A DNA stretch of 33,919 nt from Isohypsibius dastychi (taxonomy: Eukaryota > Tardigrada > Eutardigrada > Parachela > Isohypsibiidae), in contig JAQIWT010000116.1 in NCBI GenBank assembly GCA_034696485.1, positions 1 to 33,919 of the forward strand, given 5' to 3'. The notes under the pieces were generated by a model. It did not search any database. It was not told the origin of the DNA and worked only from the letters and a program-made list of their open reading frames with translations. Each line of letters starts with the position of its first letter. The first letter of the stretch is position 1. This document shows positions 2,726 to 33,005 of this stretch, piece by piece. Position numbers and translations under genes: made by a program.

Positions 2726-3160
2726 GAACTGAAGATGAACAGTTTCTGGGTGCAGATACCAATTCTCTGGAACAAAGTACAACACGGATGAATGAGGTTA
2801 AAAAACAAGATCGTACAGAATAGAAAGCGCGGATTGCGTCAAGCCGGGTTGATTGTTCGATTTCAGGAGGGCGTGGTTATCCACAGGGAAGCTGTGATCA
2901 AAGCTCCATTTAACTGAGGACTTGTGAAGCAGTCTGCTGTAACGGTTCTGTTCCTGTTGCACGCATTTTCTGGTCCACGTCATATCTATTCTCATCCGCA
3001 AAGTTTGTCTCTGTTTTGGATTTGTGGAACGATTCGGAATCGGAATACAACACATCATCAAATCGAATTATGTTGGAAAGTTATTTCTAAGTGGAAGACG
3101 CTAGTGGATATCGATTTCCACGTTGATTTGATTGCGTACGGAGTTTATTCATTCTGAAAG
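2726..3160. other. Intergenic between divergent genes
   Basis: This lies between the 5' end of the acidic-protein gene (minus) and the SEC22 start (plus). It is probably a shared bidirectional promoter region. A minus-strand open frame of 87 codons (2798-3061) has no recognisable content and could be 5' exon sequence of the minus gene or chance. Confidence 0.4.
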
Positions 3161-3869
3161 ATGGTGCTTCTCACGATGATTGCCCGAGTTGCCGATGGTT
3201 TACCACTTGCTGCCTCTGTTCAGGATGATGAAGAGCTCGGGAAAAATTTGATTCAATATCAAACGCAGGCGAAGCAGATTTTTAAGCGATTGAATAACAG
3301 TTCACCCAGCAGATGCACGATTGACTCCGCGGCTTATTATTTCCACTATATTATCGTGAATGATGTCTGCTACCTTGTGCTGACCGAAAAATCATTTCCA
3401 AAACGTGTGGCATTTACCTACCTTGAGGATCTTCAAAATGAGTTCGACTTGCAATACGGGAATCGGGTCAGCACGGTATCGCGTCCTTATGCCTTCATCG
3501 AATTTGGTTAGTAAACTTTTGCCTGTTTTACGAAGTTTTTGGCTTTATGTTTTGTTTGCAATTATAGACAACTACATACAAAAAGCAAAGAAAACATTCA
3601 ACGACAGCCGTTCAAGACGGCAACTAGGTCAGCTCAATACGGAACTGCAAGATGTCCAGAAGATTATGGTACAGAACATTGACGATGTTTTACAACGAGG
3701 ACAAGCTCTTTCGGATCTACAGGATAAAGCCGGAATGCTGTCTGCTGCTTCGGAAAAATACAGAAAAGATGCGAAATCTTTGAACAAAAAGGCGACGACC
3801 GTTAAAATTGTTGGTGTTGTTGCATTGATAGTTATCCTGTTGTTGTATCTTAAGTTTTCCTGGTTCTAA
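3161..3869 (+). CDS. SEC22: SEC22-type vesicle SNARE
   Basis: R-SNARE that works in ER-Golgi vesicle fusion (human SEC22B orthologue by resemblance). Exons 3161-3506 and 3568-3869 with a 61-base intron (gttagt...attatag) give 215 residues, the same length as human SEC22B. The N-terminal longin domain (about 1-120) begins [19 protein letters not shown], nearly identical to the family. The SNARE motif (about 130-190) holds [11 protein letters not shown] and the central-layer arginine in [10 protein letters not shown]-terminal hydrophobic anchor ([12 protein letters not shown]) ends just before the stop. The start is fixed by homology. There is nothing unusual in it. Confidence 0.97.
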
Positions 3870-4336
3870 ATTTTTCTCTTTCATGTGTTCGCACCTCGTG
3901 CATGTATGCATCAAAAGAGAATTTACGATGATAATTTGGATTTTTTATTAAATAACTCTTAAAGGCGTATCGGTGTTGGAATCGATAAAAAAACAAGACA
4001 ACAAGCAATTCTCACAAGTATTCCAACGGAAGCGCAAAACATTTTCCGAATCGCCATGTGGTAGCCAGGAGGCAAGTAGAGCTCGTAAGGTAATTAATTC
4101 CATAGATCTGGCTTCTTCCGATTTCTTCTTTTCCGCATCCAAATACTTGTGGACAAATACGAATGCGAAGATCCACCATCCAAATATGTTCCCAAGTTTT
4201 GCATGGAAATGTCATCAGGGATAAGTATCAGTTGTGCCAGCTCTAGGTAGTGAACTTGTTGGTTTTTGTTCTATTCTTCTTTTTTAGCACACTAACGAGG
4301 ATTTCGCCTTCGTATTATTTCTTGACCGCGAATAAT
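3870..4336. other. 3' region of SEC22 and upstream region of NATD1
   Basis: An ATTAAA hexamer at 3947-3952, about 80 bases past the SEC22 stop, is a plausible polyadenylation signal. Before the acetyltransferase start a tract ending ttttttag (about 4287) looks like a 3' splice site, either of a 5'-UTR intron or for trans-splicing. No gene is seen. Confidence 0.4.
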
Positions 4337-4785
4337 ATGGCGTCCAGCAACGCGAACAGTTCCATTACGGTTGTTCATGATGAAAAATCGAGGAGATTTT
4401 TTGCTTCAGTTGGCGATGGAAAGAAGGCTGAATTAACGTATGATTTATCCCCGAATGGTGTGATTGATCTGGAGCACACTTTTGTACCCACTGAACTTCG
4501 AGGAAAGGGAATCGCCGGGGAGCTTATGAAAAAGGTCACTTAAAATAGTACCTCTACATTGGTTTATTGTGAACCAGTTTGTTTTCTTGATAGGCTCTGG
4601 AATACTCGGCTAATAAGAATCTCGCCGTGAAGCTGGTACGTGCTATAAATCATTTACTGTGCGGGTAGACGATGTTTCATGGGTGCTTTTAGAGCTGCAC
4701 ATACGCTGCGGATTACGTCCAGAAAAACAAAGAACAAATCCAAAAGTACAACCAACTGAAAAATATCAAGTTCGTTGAAATTTAA
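4337..4785 (+). CDS. NATD1: NATD1-like GNAT N-acetyltransferase
   Basis: Small single-domain acetyltransferase of the NATD1/yjdJ type (GNAT fold); the substrate is unknown for this family. Exons 4337-4534, 4594-4635 and 4693-4785 join in frame to 110 residues, close to human NATD1 (113). The family signatures are all present: VVHDEKSRRFFA near the N-terminus, then IDLEHTFVPTELRGKGIAGE, which carries the acetyl-CoA-binding R/G-x-G-x-G/A turn, and the C-terminal LSCTYAADYVQKN. An upstream in-frame ATG at 4250 would add a phenylalanine-rich stretch that is really the pyrimidine tract before an acceptor, so 4337 is chosen. It converges with TMA7, with only 203 bases between stops. Confidence 0.9.
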
Positions 4786-7335: not shown

Positions 7336-9788
7336 ATGATCTCATCGGACATGGATACACGGGAAACCAAGATGGAAGTACGTGAATTCTCCAGATCCAC
7401 TGCTCGAAGAAACGCCAAAGGAGTGGAACGCTTGCGTCGGCACTTGGAAAGCTGGCGACAAGAAGTTAAACTCACACAAATGGAAAATCCAACAAATGCA
7501 CTTCAGGTGAGTCTGACTCTGATAGTATGAAGAAAATAGGTTCATATTTAGTATTCTCTGACGTTTTAGTGTGTGGCTGTGGGAAATGCAGGATTGTCTT
7601 GTGGATTTTCGGAGACGGATATTGTCGCAGTCTTGTCGAGATTTACGGTCGACGAACTTGCCCTTAAATTGACGATGGTCCCTGACAAACCGTTTGCTCT
7701 CGTTTTCTTTCCAAACAAACAGGAGGCTGAAAAAATATCTGGAATGCTTCATGGACACAGTTTCACATCGAGCAGCGGGCAAACTTTACCGTGGTACTGC
7801 TTGCAAACCGAAGATTGTAAGTGCCTTTTTGAGCGGTTTGATATTATTTTTTGCAGAATATCTAAATTACAGTTTTGCCCGAAGCCACGTGTAATAATCA
7901 GCGAGAATGGCCAGTCGGCCTGAAGTATATCTCGGAGTACATAACATCCCTTGAAGAGCAACAGCTAATAGACCTAGTTGACCGGAAGTTCAGCTTGGAG
8001 GTGGAATCAAGTAAGAAGAATGAATGGTGTATTTACTTTGCTTGTCCCAGTCTTTCAGAGAAAATATTGACTACCCACTGTTTGCAGGCGCTGATATCCT
8101 GAAGAACCGCACCGCATTTCACTATGGACGGCGGTTTCGTTACGGAACGAACGATGTTGACCTTTCAGCGTCAGAAGAGGCGATACCTGAAATACTCGCG
8201 CCGATTCTTCAGCGCTTGCTTGATAACATGTTTGTCCCAAGAAAGCCTGACCAGATCACGGTGAATGTGTACGAACCAGGCCAAGGTAACCACAATATTA
8301 GCGGAATGTATCTCTCAAACAAGTCAGATGTAGTTTCTGGTAGGAATTCCGCCTCATGTCGATACGCATTCCGTTTTCGAAAATGGAATCATCTCTCTCA
8401 GTCTAGGAGGACCCGTAATCATGGACTTTACCCGCGGCGACTCACACGTCCCACTTGTACTTGAGTCGAGAAGTCTAGTTGTAATGTGCGATGAAGCTCG
8501 CTATGCGTGGTTGCATGGGTAAGTTATTGATGTTTTGTCTAGCATTTCCTTTTTTATATTATCAGTATTACAGGATAGTCCCTCGAGCATCCGATTCCCT
8601 TCCCGGAAGCGCGCAGGCGTGGCGTCGTACCAGACGTATCTCATTCACCTTCCGGTGCATCCGGAATTCTCTATGTGTTTGTCGGTTCCCAGAGCAGTGT
8701 GACAGCCAAAAACTAAACAAAACTGAAAACGTCGACGAAGAAGATAGCGGCGCCGTAAATCTCTCCGACCAAAATTTGGAAGAGAAATTTGTTCATGCGG
8801 TAATGTTGATCAAACATTGCCATCTTCTGTCTTTCAACAGGGCATTTGTACTTTCTAGGTTTACGAACAGATCGCTCCGCATTTCAGTGAAACGCGGCAC
8901 AAACCCTGGCCCAGAGTTGTGGCTTTTCTGGAATCATTGCCAGCCGGCTCCGTACTTTTGGATATCGGATGTGGAAACGGAAAGTACTTGGGCGTACAGA
9001 AACACATTTTCTCAGTACGACTAATTAGCTGCGGATTCCTTGGAGGAAACTAAGATGCGAGTGCTGTAATGACGGTTGTATTTTTTGTTTCAGATAGGTT
9101 GTGATCGAAGTAGTGGGTTGATTGAAATCTGTCGGACCCGAGGTTTCGAGTGCCTGACTAGCGATGTTCTCTCCCTTCCATTTCGGTCAGCATGTTCCGA
9201 TGGTGTAATCTGCATCGGTATGCCTTTGTTGTTTTTTATTTTTGCCGTGTGCCCAAGATCATTTTTTTCAGCCGTGATTCATCATCTCAGCTCACGGGTC
9301 AGTTATGATTATCACCACTTTGATTTTGTGAAGTAGTTGTAACTTGACCTTTGAAGGAGCGGCGCATTGAAGCATTGCGAGAGTTGGTCAGAGTTCTTGT
9401 TGTTGGAGGTCGTGCTCTTGTGTATGTCTGGGCATTGGAGCAGAAGAAGGACCAAAAACCGTCAACGTACCTCAAAGCCGGCAAGCAAAGTGGCACTTGT
9501 GTTGTCGAACCTGGCGTATCGGAGAGCCAGTCAACAACCATGCCCATTCATAGAAATCGAACGGAATTTCTGCAGCAAGACGTTTTTGTTCCGTGGCATT
9601 TGAAGAAGAAGAACCCAGCTGCCGAATCGAAAGAAGAAGTTTACCATCGGTATTATCATGTTTTTCGAGAAGGAGAATTGAGGGAATATTGTAATGGTAT
9701 AGAAACTGTTGTTGTAGAAGAGTCGTATTACGACGAAGGCAATCATTGCGTTGTTTTAAGGAAAGTTAAGGCTGAAAAGCCGGATTAA
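7336..9788 (+). CDS. ALKBH8: ALKBH8: tRNA wobble-uridine hydroxylase/methyltransferase
   Basis: Bifunctional enzyme that methylates cm5U to mcm5U at tRNA wobble positions and, in animals, hydroxylates it. Ten exons: 7336-7506, 7570-7816, 7873-8010, 8088-8285, 8344-8518, 8574-8799, 8859-9014, 9094-9217, 9272-9297, 9357-9788; 630 residues, all in phase. An RRM-like domain spans about 57-140. The AlkB domain contains [15 protein letters not shown], with iron ligands H and D, the distal H in YAWLHG, and arginines in [11 protein letters not shown] for 2-oxoglutarate. A C-x-C...C cluster ([13 protein letters not shown]) matches the zinc site. The methyltransferase has the SAM loop [11 protein letters not shown], then GCDRS and AVIHH, and ends with [18 protein letters not shown] and [11 protein letters not shown]. 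Length and order match human ALKBH8 (664). The start codon is the least certain point. Confidence 0.96.
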
Positions 9789-10520
9789 CGCCGATTTTAA
9801 TCCATTTTTCGAATCCGCATAAATGTAAACATGGATCAACCCGTGCGAACTCTCAATCCTTATGCTCAGCCATTGGGTCACATTGAATAGATTCAATGTG
9901 ATTGGGTGACTTGTTTGTGATGAGAATATTGATTATACCGGAAAAGAGGCCGACTGCTTTGTAAATGGATAGCTTAACTGATTTAACTATTATGAATGTT
10001 CAGCAGTGTGAAATTGTTCGCTTCAAATTGACAAAAAGATGGCATTGCGGAATGGAATTGCGAATAAAAATCTGCGCTCCAAAACTTGTTTCGCAAAGGT
10101 CGTTTTTTTTCGTTTTGGCTGGCCGTAAAACAGCGACTGCAAATGACCGCACCCCATAATCTCAACACAGTAGGCCGCTGAGTCAGACTGTATTTGTTTT
10201 GGTTGGAGGCATTCACCCCGCCTGTTGGCCCTTCTGATGCGAGCCAGAGCCAGATAGAGAGAGAGAGAAAAGATATGATTCACTTACAAGGTATTCATGT
10301 TTTGGCAATTGGATTATAGGGAATATTTGTCTGATTGTTGATGGCGTCAACTAGTTCATGATTATCAGACTTGATTGTTATTTGCATGAAAGTTTCAAGG
10401 GATTGGTTGCAGGGTGAGAATACGCGCTGGAAACACCATGCTGCAGCCCAAGATTACGAATACGCTTACCTTGGAAATCGCAACTTGACTACGACTTCCA
10501 TCAAGCAACCTCGTTCTAGT
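9789..10520. other. 3' region of ALKBH8 and upstream of tetraspanin A
   Basis: It holds a perfect palindrome (listed separately), an AATAAA at 10063-10068, a short GA run near 10256-10268 and an acceptor-like ttggttgcag ending near 10411. The tetraspanin frame stays open upstream to an ATG at 10371, so part of this may be 5' UTR or an extended N-terminus. Confidence 0.4.
9878..9901. repeat. Perfect 11-bp inverted repeat, 2-base spacer
   Basis: TCACATTGAAT at 9878-9888 and its exact complement ATTCAATGTGA at 9891-9901 flank AG. It is about 90 bases past the ALKBH8 stop, so it could form a hairpin in the 3' UTR or act as a palindromic protein site. The function is unknown. Confidence 0.75.
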
Positions 10521-11678
10521 ATGGGTTGCAGGAGTGGAGTACGAATCTGCAGGATATCTTTTATTTGTCTGAATGTCGTTGTGACTCTGTTGAGTTTTGC
10601 TGCGCTTGGAATAGGGATATGGCTCCAGATATTCAACGTCGGTTATACTCGTCTTTTAGCGCAATATGTGCTCTTCAGTGCTGCTGGATTTTGTATCGGG
10701 ATGGGTTGTGTTGGGATTATTTTGTGCATTCTTGGATGCTGCGGGGCTTGGTCCGTAAATCGTTGTATGTTGATTATGGTAAGTGAACCTCAAAAACGAT
10801 AAAACTGAACAAGAGATTTGACAGGATTTGTTTTGCAGTATTTCGTTTTTGTTCTCATTTTGGTTCTTGCGGAAACTGGTCTGGGAATATACTGCCTAAT
10901 ATTTCGTGATACGGTAAGAATCCAGACATAATTCGTCTTGTACATTACATCGATCGATTAGGTTCTTGAGAAGTGGACTAATTTGACGCATGGAGGAATT
11001 GTTGTGATTTCTTCTTGACCTATTTTTAAATTCATGCTTGAATTTTTGTTACAGCTCATGGATAATGCGAGGTACGCATTGAAAGGTGGATTAAGAACGA
11101 ACTATTTGCCGCACTCAAGTCTAGCCACAACCTGGGATTCTGTCCAAGAAGGATTTGGGTGTTGCGGAGTTGATGGCATTTTTGATTGGCATTTTATTGC
11201 GGCCTGGCCGGAATTGAATATTGTCCCTGACTCATGTTGTGTTCCCGAAGCAAGGCGGATGCCGAATTGCGGGAAAAGTTTAAACATGGCGTTGCTGTAC
11301 CCAAGAGGATGTTTCCTCGTCGTTCGAGATTATGTTATGAGGAACATGTACATCTTTGTACTTATAGCAGTCCTCGTTGCATTTATTCAGGTACGAAAAA
11401 GAAATAACGAAAAAACTTCTTTCTTTGAGTATCTGATTCGGTATTGTCATCAAGGGATGTTACTCAAGAAAGCTACTTGATATCGCCTGAATTTGTTACG
11501 CGATTGAAGATGTCTTTGTTTTTAGCTTTATGGCCTCGTTTCTGCGATGGTGCTGGCTTGCTCCGACAAACACAAAGAGAAAAGTACGTCTCAGCTGGTG
11601 ATTGTGCAAGACGAGCCTGAGTTTGTTGATGTTGTGCGACTCGAACCGGTGAAACCTTATGTCGAGACCAATCTCTGA
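10521..11678 (+). CDS. Tetraspanin A
   Basis: Four-pass membrane organiser protein of the tetraspanin family. Exons 10521-10778, 10839-10913, 10962-11000, 11055-11390 and 11526-11678, all joined in phase 0, give 286 residues. TM1 follows MGCRSGVRICR, TM2 has the GCVGIILCILGCCGAW motif, TM3 is YFVFVLILVLAETGLGIYC. The large extracellular loop has the diagnostic CCG (GFGCCGVDG), PDSCC and a later GC, six cysteines in all. TM4 (YIFVLIAVLVAFIQ) leads into a cytosolic tail that ends ...VKPYVETNL. The 39-base third exon uses a weak donor (att|gttgtg), so the loop start is less sure. The ATG at 10521 (MGC, a typical tetraspanin start) is preferred over the in-frame ATG at 10371. Confidence 0.92.
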
Positions 11679-12078: not shown

Positions 12079-13419
12079 CTATCGGCGCATTTTCTCGTTG
12101 TCCTGATATCGTGCACGTATATTCCACGCAGCGCCAGCTCCGAATAACTGCGTAAAGATTTCGAAATTATAACCGCATTTTACTTAACACTTAGCAGAAT
12201 GAAGAACTCACCAAAATAATACAGACGAAAAGTCCGATTCCGGCAACAGCATCCATGTTATAATCCAACCAACGCTTCGCCACTTCCTTGCATCCCCATA
12301 CCTGGGAAACTCCTGACTGCCATGGTCGCATGCAGGACGCCGGAATTCCTCTTATACGATAATCGTTTGCCGATTCTCCACCGCAACAGAAGAGCTATCA
12401 AATACATGAAAGAGTCCAAAGAGTGCACTTTTGGAAGATGTGGAGGCACCTACGTGAGATTGAATCAAATCCATGAACTGTTCGGCTTCACCCTGCTGTT
12501 GACCTCGATTGTCGTACTCCTTGACCATCCTGTCAATATGGTAGTCGATCGAATTTTGTATGGATCCGGTTCGAGCGAAGATGAAAATGGATCCGGCCAG
12601 TGCGATGCAAAAGGTCACCAATATACAGGCAAAGTACTGCAATCAAAAAAATGTACCAGATAGCATCACACCTGAAGGAGCGTTTACGTAGTACTCTTAT
12701 ATGTGGTGAGAGAATAATTGTTTTGGAATACGAGTCATAATTTTGTGTGTCATTTTTTCATTGTTTCAGCGATCGAAAATGGGAAATCACACTCTATCTT
12801 TGAAAGAAAACATCAAAACCGTCTACAGTCCAGGATTCCGAAGTTGATGGCCAAGTGGGAAAAATAGTTTTAGAGATTTCTACCGAGTGAATTTTCGGTA
12901 CATCGCAAACAGACCTGGTCTGTGAACTGTCCAGATTTGGTCGTAACAGTAGAATTTCACATGAATAAATACCGATCATGCCAAAGATTTCTTGTTAGCC
13001 GCCCTTATTATCAGTCAACGAAAAGCCATGTTACAAAGTAAGGAAGAAATTGTCCAAGTTTGTTGTTACTACCATTAATTCGAATGAGTTACTACCTACG
13101 GTACTCACCACAGTCATTAATTTGGCTTGTTTTCGCGCGAACGCAACGCATCCGATAATGGAAATACAGATCAGAAATATTCCTGTCGTTAATAACAAAG
13201 AAGCTCCAACATGTATATCCGTCAGCCTGAGCCATGAAACGTAAGTCCCTTGTTTAGAATCCGCAATTACCCACGTTGCCAAACCAAAAAGAACAATTCC
13301 AAACATCTAAAAACAGGAAAATATATTCCACAGTCTCTGTCTGGTATTAGAGTTTCACTCACCCCATACAGAACTGTCAGGAAAAACAGGAGAAACTGAG
13401 CAATCACAAACAACCCCAT
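12079..13419 (-). CDS. Tetraspanin B
   Basis: Second, clearly different tetraspanin. Minus-strand exons 13363-13419, 13109-13306, 12454-12636, 12212-12394 and 12079-12147 join in phase 0 to 229 residues. TM1 is split by the first intron (FLLFFLTVLYG | MFGIVLFGLATW). TM2 is ASLLLTTGIFLICISIIGCV, TM3 is YFACILVTFCIALAGSIFIF. The large loop has the CCG motif (LFCCGGES), then ASC and VWGCKE, the minimal four-cysteine loop. TM4 is followed by a short tail NIRARYQDNEKMRR. An internal gtatgg near 12301 looks like a donor but the frame runs through it into the conserved WGCKE, so it is not used. The two tetraspanins differ in loop cysteine number and tail, so they are not a recent tandem copy. Confidence 0.9.
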
Positions 13420-14056: not shown

Positions 14057-14171
14057 CTAGTCTCGCAAGACACCATCCAAAGTGGCCCTCCATCCGGTTG
14101 CTTTGGATCCAAATTTATAGACCAAACGTCTTCCTGGTACGGCTTCCAGGATTTCACTTTTGTAATAGTAC
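14057..14171 (-). CDS. ETS gene, distal alternative terminal exon
   Basis: Acceptor tttgtttag in the same phase, completing the same arginine, then YYYKSEILEAVPGRRLVYKF, GSKATGW and a longer tail RATLDGVLRD-stop. This copy is close to the canonical ELF3/EHF sequence (YYYKREILERVDGRRLVYKF), so it is probably the ancestral version. Confidence 0.88.
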
Positions 14172-17100
14172 CTAAACAAAACAAAACCTCAACAATTGAG
14201 CTTTTTCAGAAAAAGCCACCACCAAATCACCAAAAACAACATGCCAATTTAACCACATTTCTTATCATTTCTGTTTAACCCAAAACATGCATTACCCTCA
14301 GATCAATCTTCCTGCCAACCAGTTGCTTTCGGTCCAAAACGATAAACCAGCTTTTTTGGATACCGGCCATTTTTGTCGACATGAAGCAGGATTTGGTTAC
14401 CGTAATAAGTCCTGAATGGGGAAAGGTCATGCAAAACTGGACCGATAACATGCGTTGATTAAACAGTCACCCAATCACCAATATTCAGAGATAGGTATGA
14501 GTTGACTTGCTTCCTCACCTCATAGCCCGACTGAGCTTCTCATAGGTCATCCGTGAATTACTCTTCTTTTCTCCCCACATTCGCGCTACTTTGTCAGAAT
14601 CAACCAGCCGAAAAACTCCCTCAGTCCGATCTTCCCATCTTATGAGTGCCGCATGTTCTTTGTTTTTCAAAAGGTCACGAATGAACTCCCACAGGTGGTT
14701 TCCTCTTGTGCCTTCATGAAACAAGATTTGGATTATATATCAACGAGATTTCCTGTAGAGTTTTCTCTCACCTTGTTTGTTTCTGTTCGCTTTTGATTTG
14801 TCACCACGTGGTGGCTTACTGCGCTTGGTAGCTTCCAAGTACAACTGTTGCGGCCAGTCTGAAAACAGAATTAAAATCTGAATGCTGACCGTTTATTGTC
14901 AAGCAATATTTACCAGAGGATGGTGAAAGGGACGTCATCGTTACACTGCTGCTTCGGTTTGAATCTCCGTCCGATTCAAGTTCTAAATAAGTTGAATTAA
15001 ATTAAGGTATTTACACATAGCAGTAACAAAGAAGTCGAAATGAAATAGTAACGCACCGCATTTGGTTTTTGTGCCGGGATGATTTCGGTTTACCTCCGGG
15101 AAGCAATGAGAAAAATTATCCAGGTAGACGTGATTGGGATGATATGAAATTTGGTTAGACTGATGTTGAATAACTGAAGCGGAGAAATTGGTGCCGTCTG
15201 GAATATCGTCAAATTCATCGGTTGTAAATGGATCTTGAATATATGCCGACATATCCGTGAAATTTTCTACTGAAGCAAACATGCGATTACTTTCAAATTC
15301 CAAATATATTTATGGCTGTTCATTACTTACCACCGGAGTTCATTGTAAGTGGCGGAATATGGTGGTCCATTCCACTTGGAAGATCAATGGGTTCCAGTTT
15401 GATCGTCATTGGTTCTCCGCTGGCTTCTGCCGAACAAATGAAATATAGCTAATTTGATCAATAAATGTTTCATGAGTCAATTAAGAAAACCGTTCCGAAA
15501 TTTCTTACGTCTAAGGAGCTTTTCGAGTGCGAAGAAAAACATATTTCCATTTCCTGGGTCGCGGCAAACAAAATCGGCCCACTCCATTTTGGCCAACGTG
15601 GGCCCGTTCATATTTCTGTACGGCTCGAAGGTCTGGTGATTGATATCCAGTTTATAATTCACGGCGACATTCTGAAGCCAGTTCTGCACGTCGAGGATAT
15701 TCCAAGCAACTGGGTGTTTTATTGACCACCCCAAGTCGTTGCTGTTAAACATGGCCAGATCGAATGACTTTGAAGAAGAACCGTCCCATCCACATCTTCC
15801 CTCAAAATCTGATGGGATATTCTGCGAGCTGTTGGAACATGGTGAGAGCGCATTCTGATTGTTGTCTAAATTACAGTTCCGGTTCTGCAAGAAAGCAATC
15901 TATAATTAAACTTACTTCAATGTCGTATTTTAATCTGATACCTTTTCGGAATATTCACTGAACGGTATATTTATTTCATTTCTTACCTGGTACTTCGAGT
16001 GAGCTGCTGCTAGATCGCCTCCGGAAGAATCCAGAATTTCGGGACCGTTAAGAAAGCTCGGTTTGGCAGAGTTATCTCGAGATTGAGTAGATATTTGAAT
16101 ATAACCAGGAGATGGCTGGCTCGCCCTGCGATGGTTGATGCCGTTTGGAAGATGCGTCGAGGTCAAGTTCGCGATTTCGAAAATCTGGAAATAAAAAAGG
16201 AAGTTGTTTTTCATGTTCAAATAAAATCACAGCTCGGAAAGACTCGTTTGCCCATTTTTTAGCCTTTTGATAATAATTTACTTTGTGGCATTATGACGAA
16301 AAACCCACGACCGGAACTGAGTTAATGCTATCACAAAACACCGGGTTTTGGCAAATTTGTCAGCTTTAGTTCTTCAGTCACAATTCACAAGGGCGGGATT
16401 GTTGTTTGAAAATGATGACCCACAGCGTACTGTCCCGTTTTACCTGTACTTTAGATTCAAAATTGTCCATCGAGGGAAAACATTTTATGGAACATATTTT
16501 TCATGAATGGACGTGGACATTCAAAACTGTCGTGCGTTTCCCACTTCTATGGAGGTCATCTACCTCACAACCAGATTTGGTACAACTACGCTGTAAAGCA
16601 CACTTGAACTCCATATTAAATTGTACTTGTCATCAAATTCAAATTCATACTCGCTGCAAACGCGTTGTTGGTTGGTTCACGTGTTTGTTGTCTTTAGCGA
16701 AGACGATCTCAAACACGAGGCGATCGGCAATGAACTCGGCCGGTGTTTTGGAAATTTTTCTAGAAGACTGCTTAACGACAACCTCGCTAGCCCGTGGATA
16801 CCAAGTAATGCTGTCACATCGAGCTATTGATGACCCATTTAAAGTTCTAACAAACAGGTACCAAGCAGAAAAATGACACCGGCGCATGGATCACTCGACT
16901 ATTATTCGCAGAAGAGGAAAAATACTATTTACGGAAATCATACCATTAATCCATGATGCACCTGCGAGTTAATTTTTGCAAGCCCAAATGAAAATAGATA
17001 TGTGAGTGATTTGATGATCACTTGCCAGAATCTGGGGAAATTAGTGAGAAAAGGTTTGAATTTGACGGCCAAATCCGGTTGACTGAACTCCGCATATGCT

Positions 17101-21749: not shown

Positions 21750-24042
21750 TCAAGCAGTTGTCAAATTGCCATGAAGACGCTGAACGACAGTCGTCGGAAT
21801 CAAGCCATTTCTACCGGTTCGCTCATGAGTGGCACGCATCCAGCCTACAAACAACCCATCGGACACTTAGTTTCCATTCAAAGTTAATTTTAAACAATAA
21901 ATTTTCAGATTCTAAAGTAATATAGTAATAAACAGATTTACTTACCGTCGGAAGGCTTCTGATGAACATACAGAAGATCGTTGACATGCAGGTCCAGTTC
22001 GTAATGGTTGCGAGCCGGGTAAGGTGCCACACAACGGTAGCACTCAAATGTAGTTGGTTTTGAGGGCGCTTTCTGCAACCTGAACGCGTTCAATCCAACT
22101 GCCCTCTTGTATCTGTTTTCCTCACTGGAATTATCTCTGTAATACGTAATAATCTTAATAAGTAATAGCGTAATTAATCAGTCTGCTTACATCACAGTGC
22201 TCTCAGAAACTGATAACGTCTTTAGCCGGCCAGCCATCGAGTTGGGATGAAGATCATGGGATTTGCTATGCACTTTGAAAATCTTGTTGATGAAAGATTT
22301 GCTATCCTTTGGCGTCGCGACCTAGAAATACAATTTAAAACGTGTTAATCAACGTGAATCAGCACAAACTCCGTGCTTAATTAATATAAACTGTGGACTA
22401 TATTCCGAAAGAGTCATCAAAATGATCAGCTACAGCCATTTTGCATTTTAACACTAACAAAGGAGACCCATCTATTCGCAAAATGCAAAACATACACCTA
22501 CTGCTGCAAAACATCCCCGAATTACATCCCAAATACCTTTGATTATACAACAAGTATCCTATCTCTATCAAAAATGACGCAAAACAGCATTCATCTTCTA
22601 AAAGATAATCGACACTTCTTACCTCAGGTGCCCCGATAGTGTTATTGTAACCTGATGGCTTCACATGATTTGGAGATCGGCTCATATTCGGGACGACGAT
22701 TTCCAGGACTTGAGCTGAATCTCCCGAGCCAGGGGCATTTTGTTGCCGTTTGTTGAGCGCTCGCTCTACAGGTGTTGATGCTGTTCGAGCTGCATACGAT
22801 CGATATGAAAATCCAATGGGCTCCTTGCTCGCCGGCAAAGATCTATTCCTCGGTGCATTTCGCCAGCCTGTTTGGGAAAACGGTTGTCCAGCAAGTACTC
22901 TCCCATTGACGTTATCAGGTGGCGGGAGAAACACCGAATCGTCTGCCTGGACGGATTCACTTAGAGGCTCCTAAAAGTGGGAAAGGTCATACATAAGCGG
23001 ATAACCACTGAATAAACAATTCCGTTTTCGCTTACAACGATAATCGATCAACAAGATTATTTTTGACCAATAATTCAATAGATTTTCGATAGTGATAAAA
23101 GTTTGTGAATGAATCTGGATAGAATGTTCGGAATAATCGTTAATCCGAGTTTTGTTCAAATTTACCAGTTTCGCAGCTGTTGATGCCAGATCGATCGAAG
23201 TTCGGCTTAGACGCATTCCAGTAGTGAAGAGAGTGGATGTTCCTGCACCACCAGTCCGTCAGCGATTTTATTGATTCGTTTTCGAAAGGTGATCGAGGAG
23301 CTGTTAAAGTGTTCCCTTCGGCAACAACGTGACCAAAGTGCCCACCCGGATGTCCTAGATCCTCATGGGGAAGGCTTTGTTTCCGCTGTCGGGGAAATCT
23401 AAAAATAATAAATAAAATAATATTCCCTCAGGGCAAATATTTTTTTTCGGGATATTTCTTAATTCCAGTCACACCCGAAATTATTTCATCATCATCTACG
23501 TTATTCGTGTATAATAAAATTCGAAGTTTTGATAAACTAATTCTTTAAGCCAGCATTATAGTTATCTAATGGAACGTCTTTTTGTTATGATAGAAGAAAC
23601 CTTTTCATTTCTTAATAGCTTGGTGTGATAAGACTTACGCAGGTGGTAATTCAAAATGATTTGCAGTTAGATGAGCATATCCCGGTGAAGTAGGACAGGA
23701 CTTGGTGAATATCGATATTTCACACGAACTGTTCCTTTTCGATTTGATGACCTCTAGCAAGCGAACTAACAGGATGTTCCTCGGTAGATCTTTGATTGCG
23801 GTTGTGACAACCGTCTGCAGAAACAAAAAAAAATTATTCATTTGGATAACTCAAACTCATTACTTGCGCAAACGAAAACTCACCCGACATTCCGGACAAA
23901 GCAATTCCGACCGCTTCAAATAAATGTCTTCCAGACAGCTGGAGCAAAATGTATGCTGACAAGGTAAGACCCGGTTGTTTTCATTTAAAATATTCAAGCA
24001 AATTGGGCATTCGAGAAGCAAGTTCAGGGATTGTTCGTCCAT
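21750..24042 (-). CDS. SH3RF: SH3RF/POSH-like RING-SH3 protein, frame broken by one base
   Basis: E3 ubiquitin ligase/scaffold of the SH3RF (POSH) family by its ends. Exons: 23884-24042, 23639-23814, 23166-23398, 22623-22970, 22191-22321, 21946-22136, 21750-21844. The N-terminus matches POSH: a C3HC4 RING ([26 protein letters not shown]) followed by [14 protein letters not shown]. The C-terminus is one SH3 domain ([41 protein letters not shown]), resembling the fourth SH3 of POSH. The middle is low-complexity; SH3 domains 1-3 of fly and human POSH are not seen. The coding total is 1333 bases, one too many: within exon 3 the frame entering ([14 protein letters not shown]) and the frame leaving ([15 protein letters not shown]) differ by one base around 23240-23262. 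An assembly error, a real frameshift or an unseen splice could explain this. A ttccag acceptor just before the start suggests a 5' UTR splice. Confidence 0.85.
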
Positions 24043-24816
24043 TTTCAAGGAAAGTCTGGAACGAAGAAAAAGAAAGACTGGATGAAGGAAAATAGGCAAT
24101 TTTTCCACAGACGTCTGCAGATCTCGAAATAGGATCACTCAATACAAGTGCAATATGTGACAAAATGCGGTTAGCTAGCAGCGACTGTTCCCTGAAGAGG
24201 GTCTCGTTTCATTTGGCGAAGAAAATCGATTCGCCGCTCTCGGTTAACTTATCTACGTCAATCTGGATTTACCAACTTTCGCACCTGCAAAACTAGTACG
24301 CATATGCATCATACCGCAAGACTGAGTTCCATATAAAGAAATCTTCATGTGTCGAAACAAGACCAATTTTTTTCGAATAAACTTATGAACCAAGAAGGGA
24401 GACTGCTCTATTCCTAAGAAGAGAAAAACTACGATTCAAATCAGCGCTCCACTGCGTGGTCATCCAGAGATGTCTAAGTTACTACATCATCTTCAGTGGT
24501 CATCCACAGTGACATCGTTGCGGTTAATATTTTCCCCAGATTTACCTGACGAGAATTGAGTTAAAAATCTGATTCTGGGAAGCTCGAAGCATTCTGTAGT
24601 ACCGGAAAGAGCTACTGCGCTATCTGTTGAATGTTCATGGTTTCACCTATGTGCTGGTACAGAAAGACCACACTAGCATGTTACCAACATGTGCGAATAA
24701 CTGAAGTTCTTGGTTTTATTCAAATATTTTGGGTTGATCAGCGAATATACGAAAAAGTTAAGAAATACTTTGAGCGTTTCAAAAACTTGCCACGTACCTG
24801 AAGAGAAAGATATTCG
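24043..24816. other. Intergenic between SH3RF-like and MED30 genes
   Basis: 5' region of the SH3RF-like gene and 3' region of MED30, both minus. No open frame or element I can support. Confidence 0.45.

Positions 24817-26696: not shown

Positions 26697-33005
<6,309 letters not shown>

Follow-up and report, generated by a model that had tools for sequence, protein, structure and literature searches.

Two candidate alternative last exons for the ETS domain of an ESE/EHF-type gene in the tardigrade Isohypsibius dastychi, with counterparts in other protostomes

The DNA sites recognised by different ETS factors are much alike, and it has long been asked how each factor selects its targets. The 33,919 nucleotides of Isohypsibius dastychi DNA analysed here (the window) contain an ETS gene with two last exons, each able to finish the DNA-binding domain. 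We consider it probable that this is one ESE/EHF-type ETS gene with two alternative terminal exons, and that splicing between them would set target choice.

The coding part of the gene, which encodes a PNT and an ETS domain of the ESE/EHF type, runs from 20180 to 14057 on the minus strand, with splice sites and start codon chosen by eye. Eight shared exons (20180-20049, 17697-17491, 16184-15987, 15884-15509, 15426-15331, 15269-15057, 14982-14914 and 14858-14772) are followed by the last shared exon, 14711-14519, which encodes the ETS domain over its first two thirds. All nine have a GT donor and all but the first are preceded by AG. The last shared exon ends ...CGGGCTATGAG, followed by the donor GTGAGG, and stops within a codon, that of the final arginine of the helix-3 signature KLSRAMR. 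The full reading frames have no internal stop and give 559 residues in the proximal form and 561 in the distal form. The Pfam PNT match (SAM_PNT, residues 232-304) is encoded in exon 15884-15509 and scores 31.7 and 31.5 bits in the two forms (cut-off 24). The Ets match scores 98.9 bits with the proximal end and 115.2 bits with the distal end (cut-off 26.9), which places both forms in the ETS family. The gene has the ESE/EHF arrangement, with the PNT domain ahead of an ETS domain at the C-terminus, and EHF, ELF3 and ELF5 (10sm, 3jtg, 1wwx), the nearest solved relatives, were the top three PDB matches with either end. Both ends also retain the FG..A.GW tail of this group. As the PDB queries contain the shared exon, only this tail speaks to the subfamily of the proximal end alone.

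The proximal last exon (14411-14303, minus strand, coding part and stop) has CCCCATTCAG followed by GACTTATTACGG..., stops at TGA and is translated (R)TYYGNQILLHVDKNGRYPKKLVYRFGPKATGWQED. The distal last exon (14171-14057, minus strand, coding part and stop) has TTTTGTTTAG followed by GTACTATTACAAA..., stops at TAG and is translated (R)YYYKSEILEAVPGRRLVYKFGSKATGWRATLDGVLRD. Each has an AG acceptor and its own stop, and both complete the arginine codon (AG/G) in phase. The distal end, RYYY...RRLVYKFG, is canonical and aligned without gaps to the ends of EHF and ELF3 in the PDB search. The proximal end, RTYY... with five additional wing residues and then ...PKKLVYRFG, lacks both the Tyr-Tyr-Tyr that follows the last helix-3 arginine in the distal end and its short wing, and is a variant of the canonical ESE domain end. 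A sequence-only reading had proposed two last exons in the same phase, and the gene model confirmed their coordinates, acceptors, stops and split codon. Alignment likewise agreed with its placing of Tyr in the distal and Thr in the proximal end at the position of Ets-1 Tyr395, and the changed loop it had described proved to be the five extra residues between the last two strands. Adjacent, homologous, in one phase and served by one donor, the two exons are a tandem duplicate, identical at 16 of 28 residues. They share 9 of 14 codons among the common residues, compared with 5.2 expected (P 0.03). An old duplication does not predict this, so it counts against that reading; the excess may be due to chance or to partial gene conversion.

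The sequence-only reading had named orthologues in related species as a check, and we found proximal-type ends far beyond tardigrades. A first search, for which the query was the ETS domain in its proximal form, gave 772 matches, and the 120 listed comprised 97 proximal-type and 23 distal-type ends. A second, with the mollusc-type protein P0101, gave 1040 matches; 84 of the 120 listed were new, 43 of them proximal, 36 distal and 5 neither. A third, with a starfish protein, gave 1150 matches, and the 107 new proteins among the 120 listed, mostly deuterostome and including one bryozoan, had distal ends without exception. Over the 311 fetched proteins from these listed matches the totals were 140 proximal, 166 distal and 5 neither. 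Among the matches listed, proximal-type ends were found in nematodes (RTYYEKQILVPVPKTGLYPKKLVYKFGP), chelicerates (in ticks, RTYYGKQILEPVPKTEGLPKKLVYKFGP), a locust (RNYYASGILEPVPKTGQYPKRLVYKFG), molluscs (P0101, of mollusc type, RFCRSAGYFAEVPKTGKFPKKLCFRFGP) and annelids, one of which has an end very similar to that of P0101. The deuterostome proteins among the matches listed had the distal type only.

The three residues after the arginine separate the two types. Distal ends of the fetched proteins read YYY (140) or HYY (26), and proximal ends TYY (76), FCR (55), WCR (3), WSR (2), YSR (2), NYY (1) or FSR (1). The Tyr395 position of proximal ends is occupied by Thr, by Asn in the locust and mostly by Phe in molluscs. 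The five-residue wing insert has the same spacing in 138 of 139 measured proximal ends and runs into Pro-Lys-Lys. The proximal exon of the window is 71% identical to one nematode end over 31 columns. Counting against an old pair, only distal ends appeared among the listed proteins of the tardigrade Paramacrobiotus, five mites and Trichinella, so loss or missing annotation must occur. For 24 of the 97 proximal-type matches of the first search the contig measures 1.5-4.6 kb, which is 1.1 to 3.4 times the coding length, and these contigs would seem to be assembled mRNAs. The C. elegans protein P0032 carries a proximal-type end and is presumably svh-5, judging from a Pristionchus record of that name (P0064). 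Six proteins (P0156, P0168, P0179, P0180, P0200 and P0203), two of them from the molluscs Pinctada and Haliotis, have YSR, WCR or WSR after the arginine together with a PKKL wing; they are perhaps paralogues that retained only the proximal-type end.

In some of these relatives both ends come from one gene. The aligned upstream residues are identical at 355 of 355 positions between Amblyomma americanum isoforms X8 and X4, at 406 of 407 between Ruditapes isoforms X2 and X3, and at 365 of 366 between Mercenaria isoforms X5 and X2, and all three pairs diverge exactly after the recognition-helix arginine. This near-identity, with the isoform names, indicates one gene per species in these three. Pairs from different or unnamed species (mussel-like, oysters) had lower upstream agreement and were excluded as proof. 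Six gene models carry both ends, the proximal first: five from nematodes (Enterobius, Plectus, Strongylus, Pristionchus pacificus and Steinernema hermaphroditum; P0001, P0002, P0054, P0064 and P0068), where a distal-type end follows a proximal-type end in one protein, and one from the annelid Owenia, where the start of a proximal end, broken, is followed by a distal end. The fusion is probably an error of gene prediction in each case, but the models place both exons in the order seen in the window. As the tick and clam isoforms and the fused models all show the pair, the claim of two ends is stronger than the window alone would allow. Isoform pairs of ETS ends are already present in public annotation, and these relatives lend good support to the ends being used as alternative isoforms. 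The arrangement looks old and in use, not a dead copy. The sequence-only reading thus stands in that one ETS domain has two alternative ends in the same phase. The duplication itself is old and not peculiar to this gene copy.

In Isohypsibius dastychi, by extension, both ends would be used. The donor at 14519 would be joined either to the proximal acceptor at 14411 or, with the proximal exon skipped, to the distal acceptor at 14171. The PNT domain and the start of the ETS domain, which includes the helix-3 arginines that read the core, would be present in both products. The difference would lie in the final portion of helix 3, the last strands and the wing that joins these. The helix, strand and wing assignments of the two ends come from alignment. 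Swapping the ends would then alter flanking-base preference or the grip on the backbone, and so splicing would set target choice. In a simulated Ets1 dimer-DNA complex, Ets-1 Arg391, Tyr395, Tyr396 and Lys399 meet bases (PMC4224484), and a change of the Tyr395 rotamer lets Ets1 accept GGAG beside Pax5 (PMC5322934). By alignment the helix-3 arginines are common to both forms, with Tyr395 kept in the distal and replaced by Thr in the proximal. A wing that is longer and basic, lying near the phosphate backbone, could affect how tightly DNA is bound or which flanks are preferred. The altered residues, at the Tyr395 position and in the wing, fit isoform-specific target choice, and we infer from them that target choice would change between isoforms. 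They also fit weaker DNA binding or changed partner contacts.

It is rather unlikely, though not negligibly so, that the proximal isoform is an antagonist or does not read DNA at all, its DNA binding weakened by the changed helix end and long wing and its role lying in competition through the PNT domain or in other partners. At the Tyr395 position, 138 of 140 proximal-type ends have a residue other than Tyr (the remaining two read YSR), the next two tyrosines are also lost in the 61 FCR, WCR, WSR and FSR ends and in the two YSR ends, and the Pfam Ets score falls from 115.2 to 98.9 bits when the proximal end is used. However, the helix-3 arginines are encoded by the shared exon and would be present in either product, the next two tyrosines are retained in the 77 TYY or NYY ends, and a wing insert of such constant length (138 of 139), with its PKK, would suit a part that faces DNA.

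To gauge the age of the pair, a tree was built from 71 chosen ends: 67 of the 311 fetched proteins (about one per genus) supplied 68 of them, and the genome of the window three. The ends were trimmed shortly after KFG, the tree had 31 columns, the model was simple and the bootstrap had not settled; the mollusc HYY and the WCR, WSR and YSR paralogues were left out, as were odd ends other than the distal part of Owenia's. In this tree the proximal type forms one side of a branch with support 97/87, or 97/90 when the five columns of the insert are removed. The unvarying length of the insert (138 of 139) also speaks for a single origin, and a single event in the ancestor of the protostomes is the probable source of the exon pair. 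The alternative is separate duplications, with the proximal exons of ecdysozoans (TYY) and lophotrochozoans (FCR) converging afterwards. The helix residues of the two groups are strongly different, and the AU test does not reject a separate lophotrochozoan origin, which is worse by 16.4 log units (p-AU 0.057), or by 13.1 units without the insert columns (p-AU 0.109). We nevertheless judge convergence improbable: the exon order is the same wherever it was seen, the five-residue insert sits at the same place and leads into the same PKKL, and the proximal type keeps to one side of its branch. Our broader proposal is tentative, and we hold it at a little under even: a splice switch of the protostome ancestor, giving one ESE-type ETS gene two DNA-reading surfaces, with the second retuned in the nematode, arthropod and mollusc lines, absent from deuterostomes, and with paralogues later fixing one end.

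Within the genome of I. dastychi (30.4 Mb, 1648 contigs) at least three ETS matches were found: the window gene, one on C815 whose ETS domain lies in a single exon, and one on C61. The C61 gene (G000:C61, about 31758-32122; L003 1501-1865) is an ESE-like paralogue with a PNT-like exon by eye and an ETS exon by search; its one last exon, of distal type (RHYYKSQIIMSVPKRQLVYQFG), follows an intron of about 63 bases. Searching the genome with the proximal end gave no match besides the proximal exon itself, and searching with the distal end also matched the C61 paralogue. Many mollusc paralogues among the matches listed likewise have a HYY distal end, and together with the C61 gene this suggests that one gene copy fixed one end. 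The closest relative at full length, within the fetched set of proteins, is P0086 of the tardigrade Paramacrobiotus (39.6% over 391 residues), which is also closest for the part before the ETS domain; for the PNT domain alone the best match is in molluscs. Elsewhere in the window Pfam found Brix (1032-1316), Longin (3158-3508), a small GNAT acetyltransferase (4247-4540) and a tetraspanin (10362-10799) on the plus strand, and a RING finger (23863-24138) on the minus strand, where there are also a below-cut-off tetraspanin (13034-13306) and a below-cut-off ion-channel domain (28561-28917). Three further frames of the window had no Pfam family.

The proximal exon lies behind an intron of 107 bases, and the distal exon behind one of 347. 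The 131 bases that separate the proximal stop from the distal exon (14302-14172, minus strand) contain no AATAAA; the first downstream of either end lies about 240 bases past the distal stop (13817-13812, minus strand). A transcript using the proximal exon thus probably carries, or reads through, the distal exon in its 3' UTR. A moderate donor-like site, AGG/GTAATG, lies within the same 131 bases, after 14296 on the minus strand. That the proximal exon here is a relic, or serves regulated unproductive splicing, seems to us very improbable. The lack of a poly(A) signal between the exons would suit it, but the frame, stop, acceptor and conserved residues of the proximal exon are intact. In mRNA decay a stop is usually recognised by its distance from a downstream junction under a 50-base rule, and a join through 14296 to the distal exon would put the stop 7 bases before the junction, too near for that rule.

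Just upstream of the proximal acceptor (14429-14422, minus strand) lies the word TGACCTTT, over-represented and resembling a branch site. The window has 17 copies where 1.75 are expected, about ten times too many, further examples being 22982-22989, 27462-27469 and 31435-31442 (minus strand). By eye, several copies directly precede an AG that resembles an acceptor; an AG lies within 10 bases after 10 of the 17 copies, which by itself is unremarkable. Genome-wide, TGACCTTTCAG occurs 176 times compared with 24 for its backward control, and TGACCTTTGAC 82 times compared with 60. The word may be an element of this lineage that combines branch site and acceptor, and its presence before 14411 mildly supports a real proximal acceptor. 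The sole window copy of TGACCTTTCAG, at 8158, seemingly in coding sequence, is at odds with the branch-site reading. No TGACCTTT word lies upstream of the distal acceptor, and this difference could bear on exon choice.

Three other origins were considered. A dead duplicate is very unlikely given the conservation of the proximal end in relatives. A short open frame alone says little. Against the C. elegans end, however, the proximal peptide scores 120 (best of 2000 shuffles, 44), and against the Ixodes end 114 (best, 42). These matches exceed chance, and conservation and shuffles together rule out a chance frame. Derivation from another ETS subfamily is disfavoured, chiefly by the shared FG..A.GW tail. 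The whole-domain queries match EHF, ELF5 and ELF3 first, which is weak on origin as they include the shared exon, and the mollusc proximal-type end alone had no PDB match.

Exon 18b of FOXP1 is internal and lies within the forkhead domain. Its splice choice alters the DNA-binding preference of the factor (review PMC5423462), a parallel to the ETS gene from the forkhead family. In Drosophila FoxP the choice of last exon makes part of the forkhead (winged-helix) domain different, and the two isoforms differ in their overexpression effects (PMC6372147); FoxP is unlike the ETS pair in its forkhead, and the portion of that paper available describes no pair across many phyla. Vertebrate EHF, ELF3 and ELF5 belong to the same subfamily as the window gene and their ends match its distal end, but deuterostomes among the matches listed have the distal type only. 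C. elegans SVH-5, renamed ETS-1, is a PNT-plus-ETS factor like the window gene, and the available part of PMC4618690 mentions no alternative end. Duplicated exons occur likewise in the transcription factor genes Drosophila serpent, where the alternative exon has no known motif (PMC8844375), and vertebrate COE/EBF, where the duplicated exon is included as an addition (PMC2394523). In the open-access literature, to which the search was largely confined, we found no description of alternative ETS-domain ends, and a term search of the main texts of PMC2940738, PMC4618690, PMC10664356, PMC3685541, PMC4434323 and PMC9013439 gave none. Winged-helix domains with an alternative last exon are thus known from FoxP, and the ETS version is apparently undescribed within that scope.

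If the pair works as proposed, the ETS fold would join those DNA-binding folds that splicing is known to reshape, and studies of an invertebrate ESE factor based on one cDNA may cover half the gene. The two ends would also be an old natural experiment, in which only the end of the helix and the wing change within one gene, isolating what those parts contribute.
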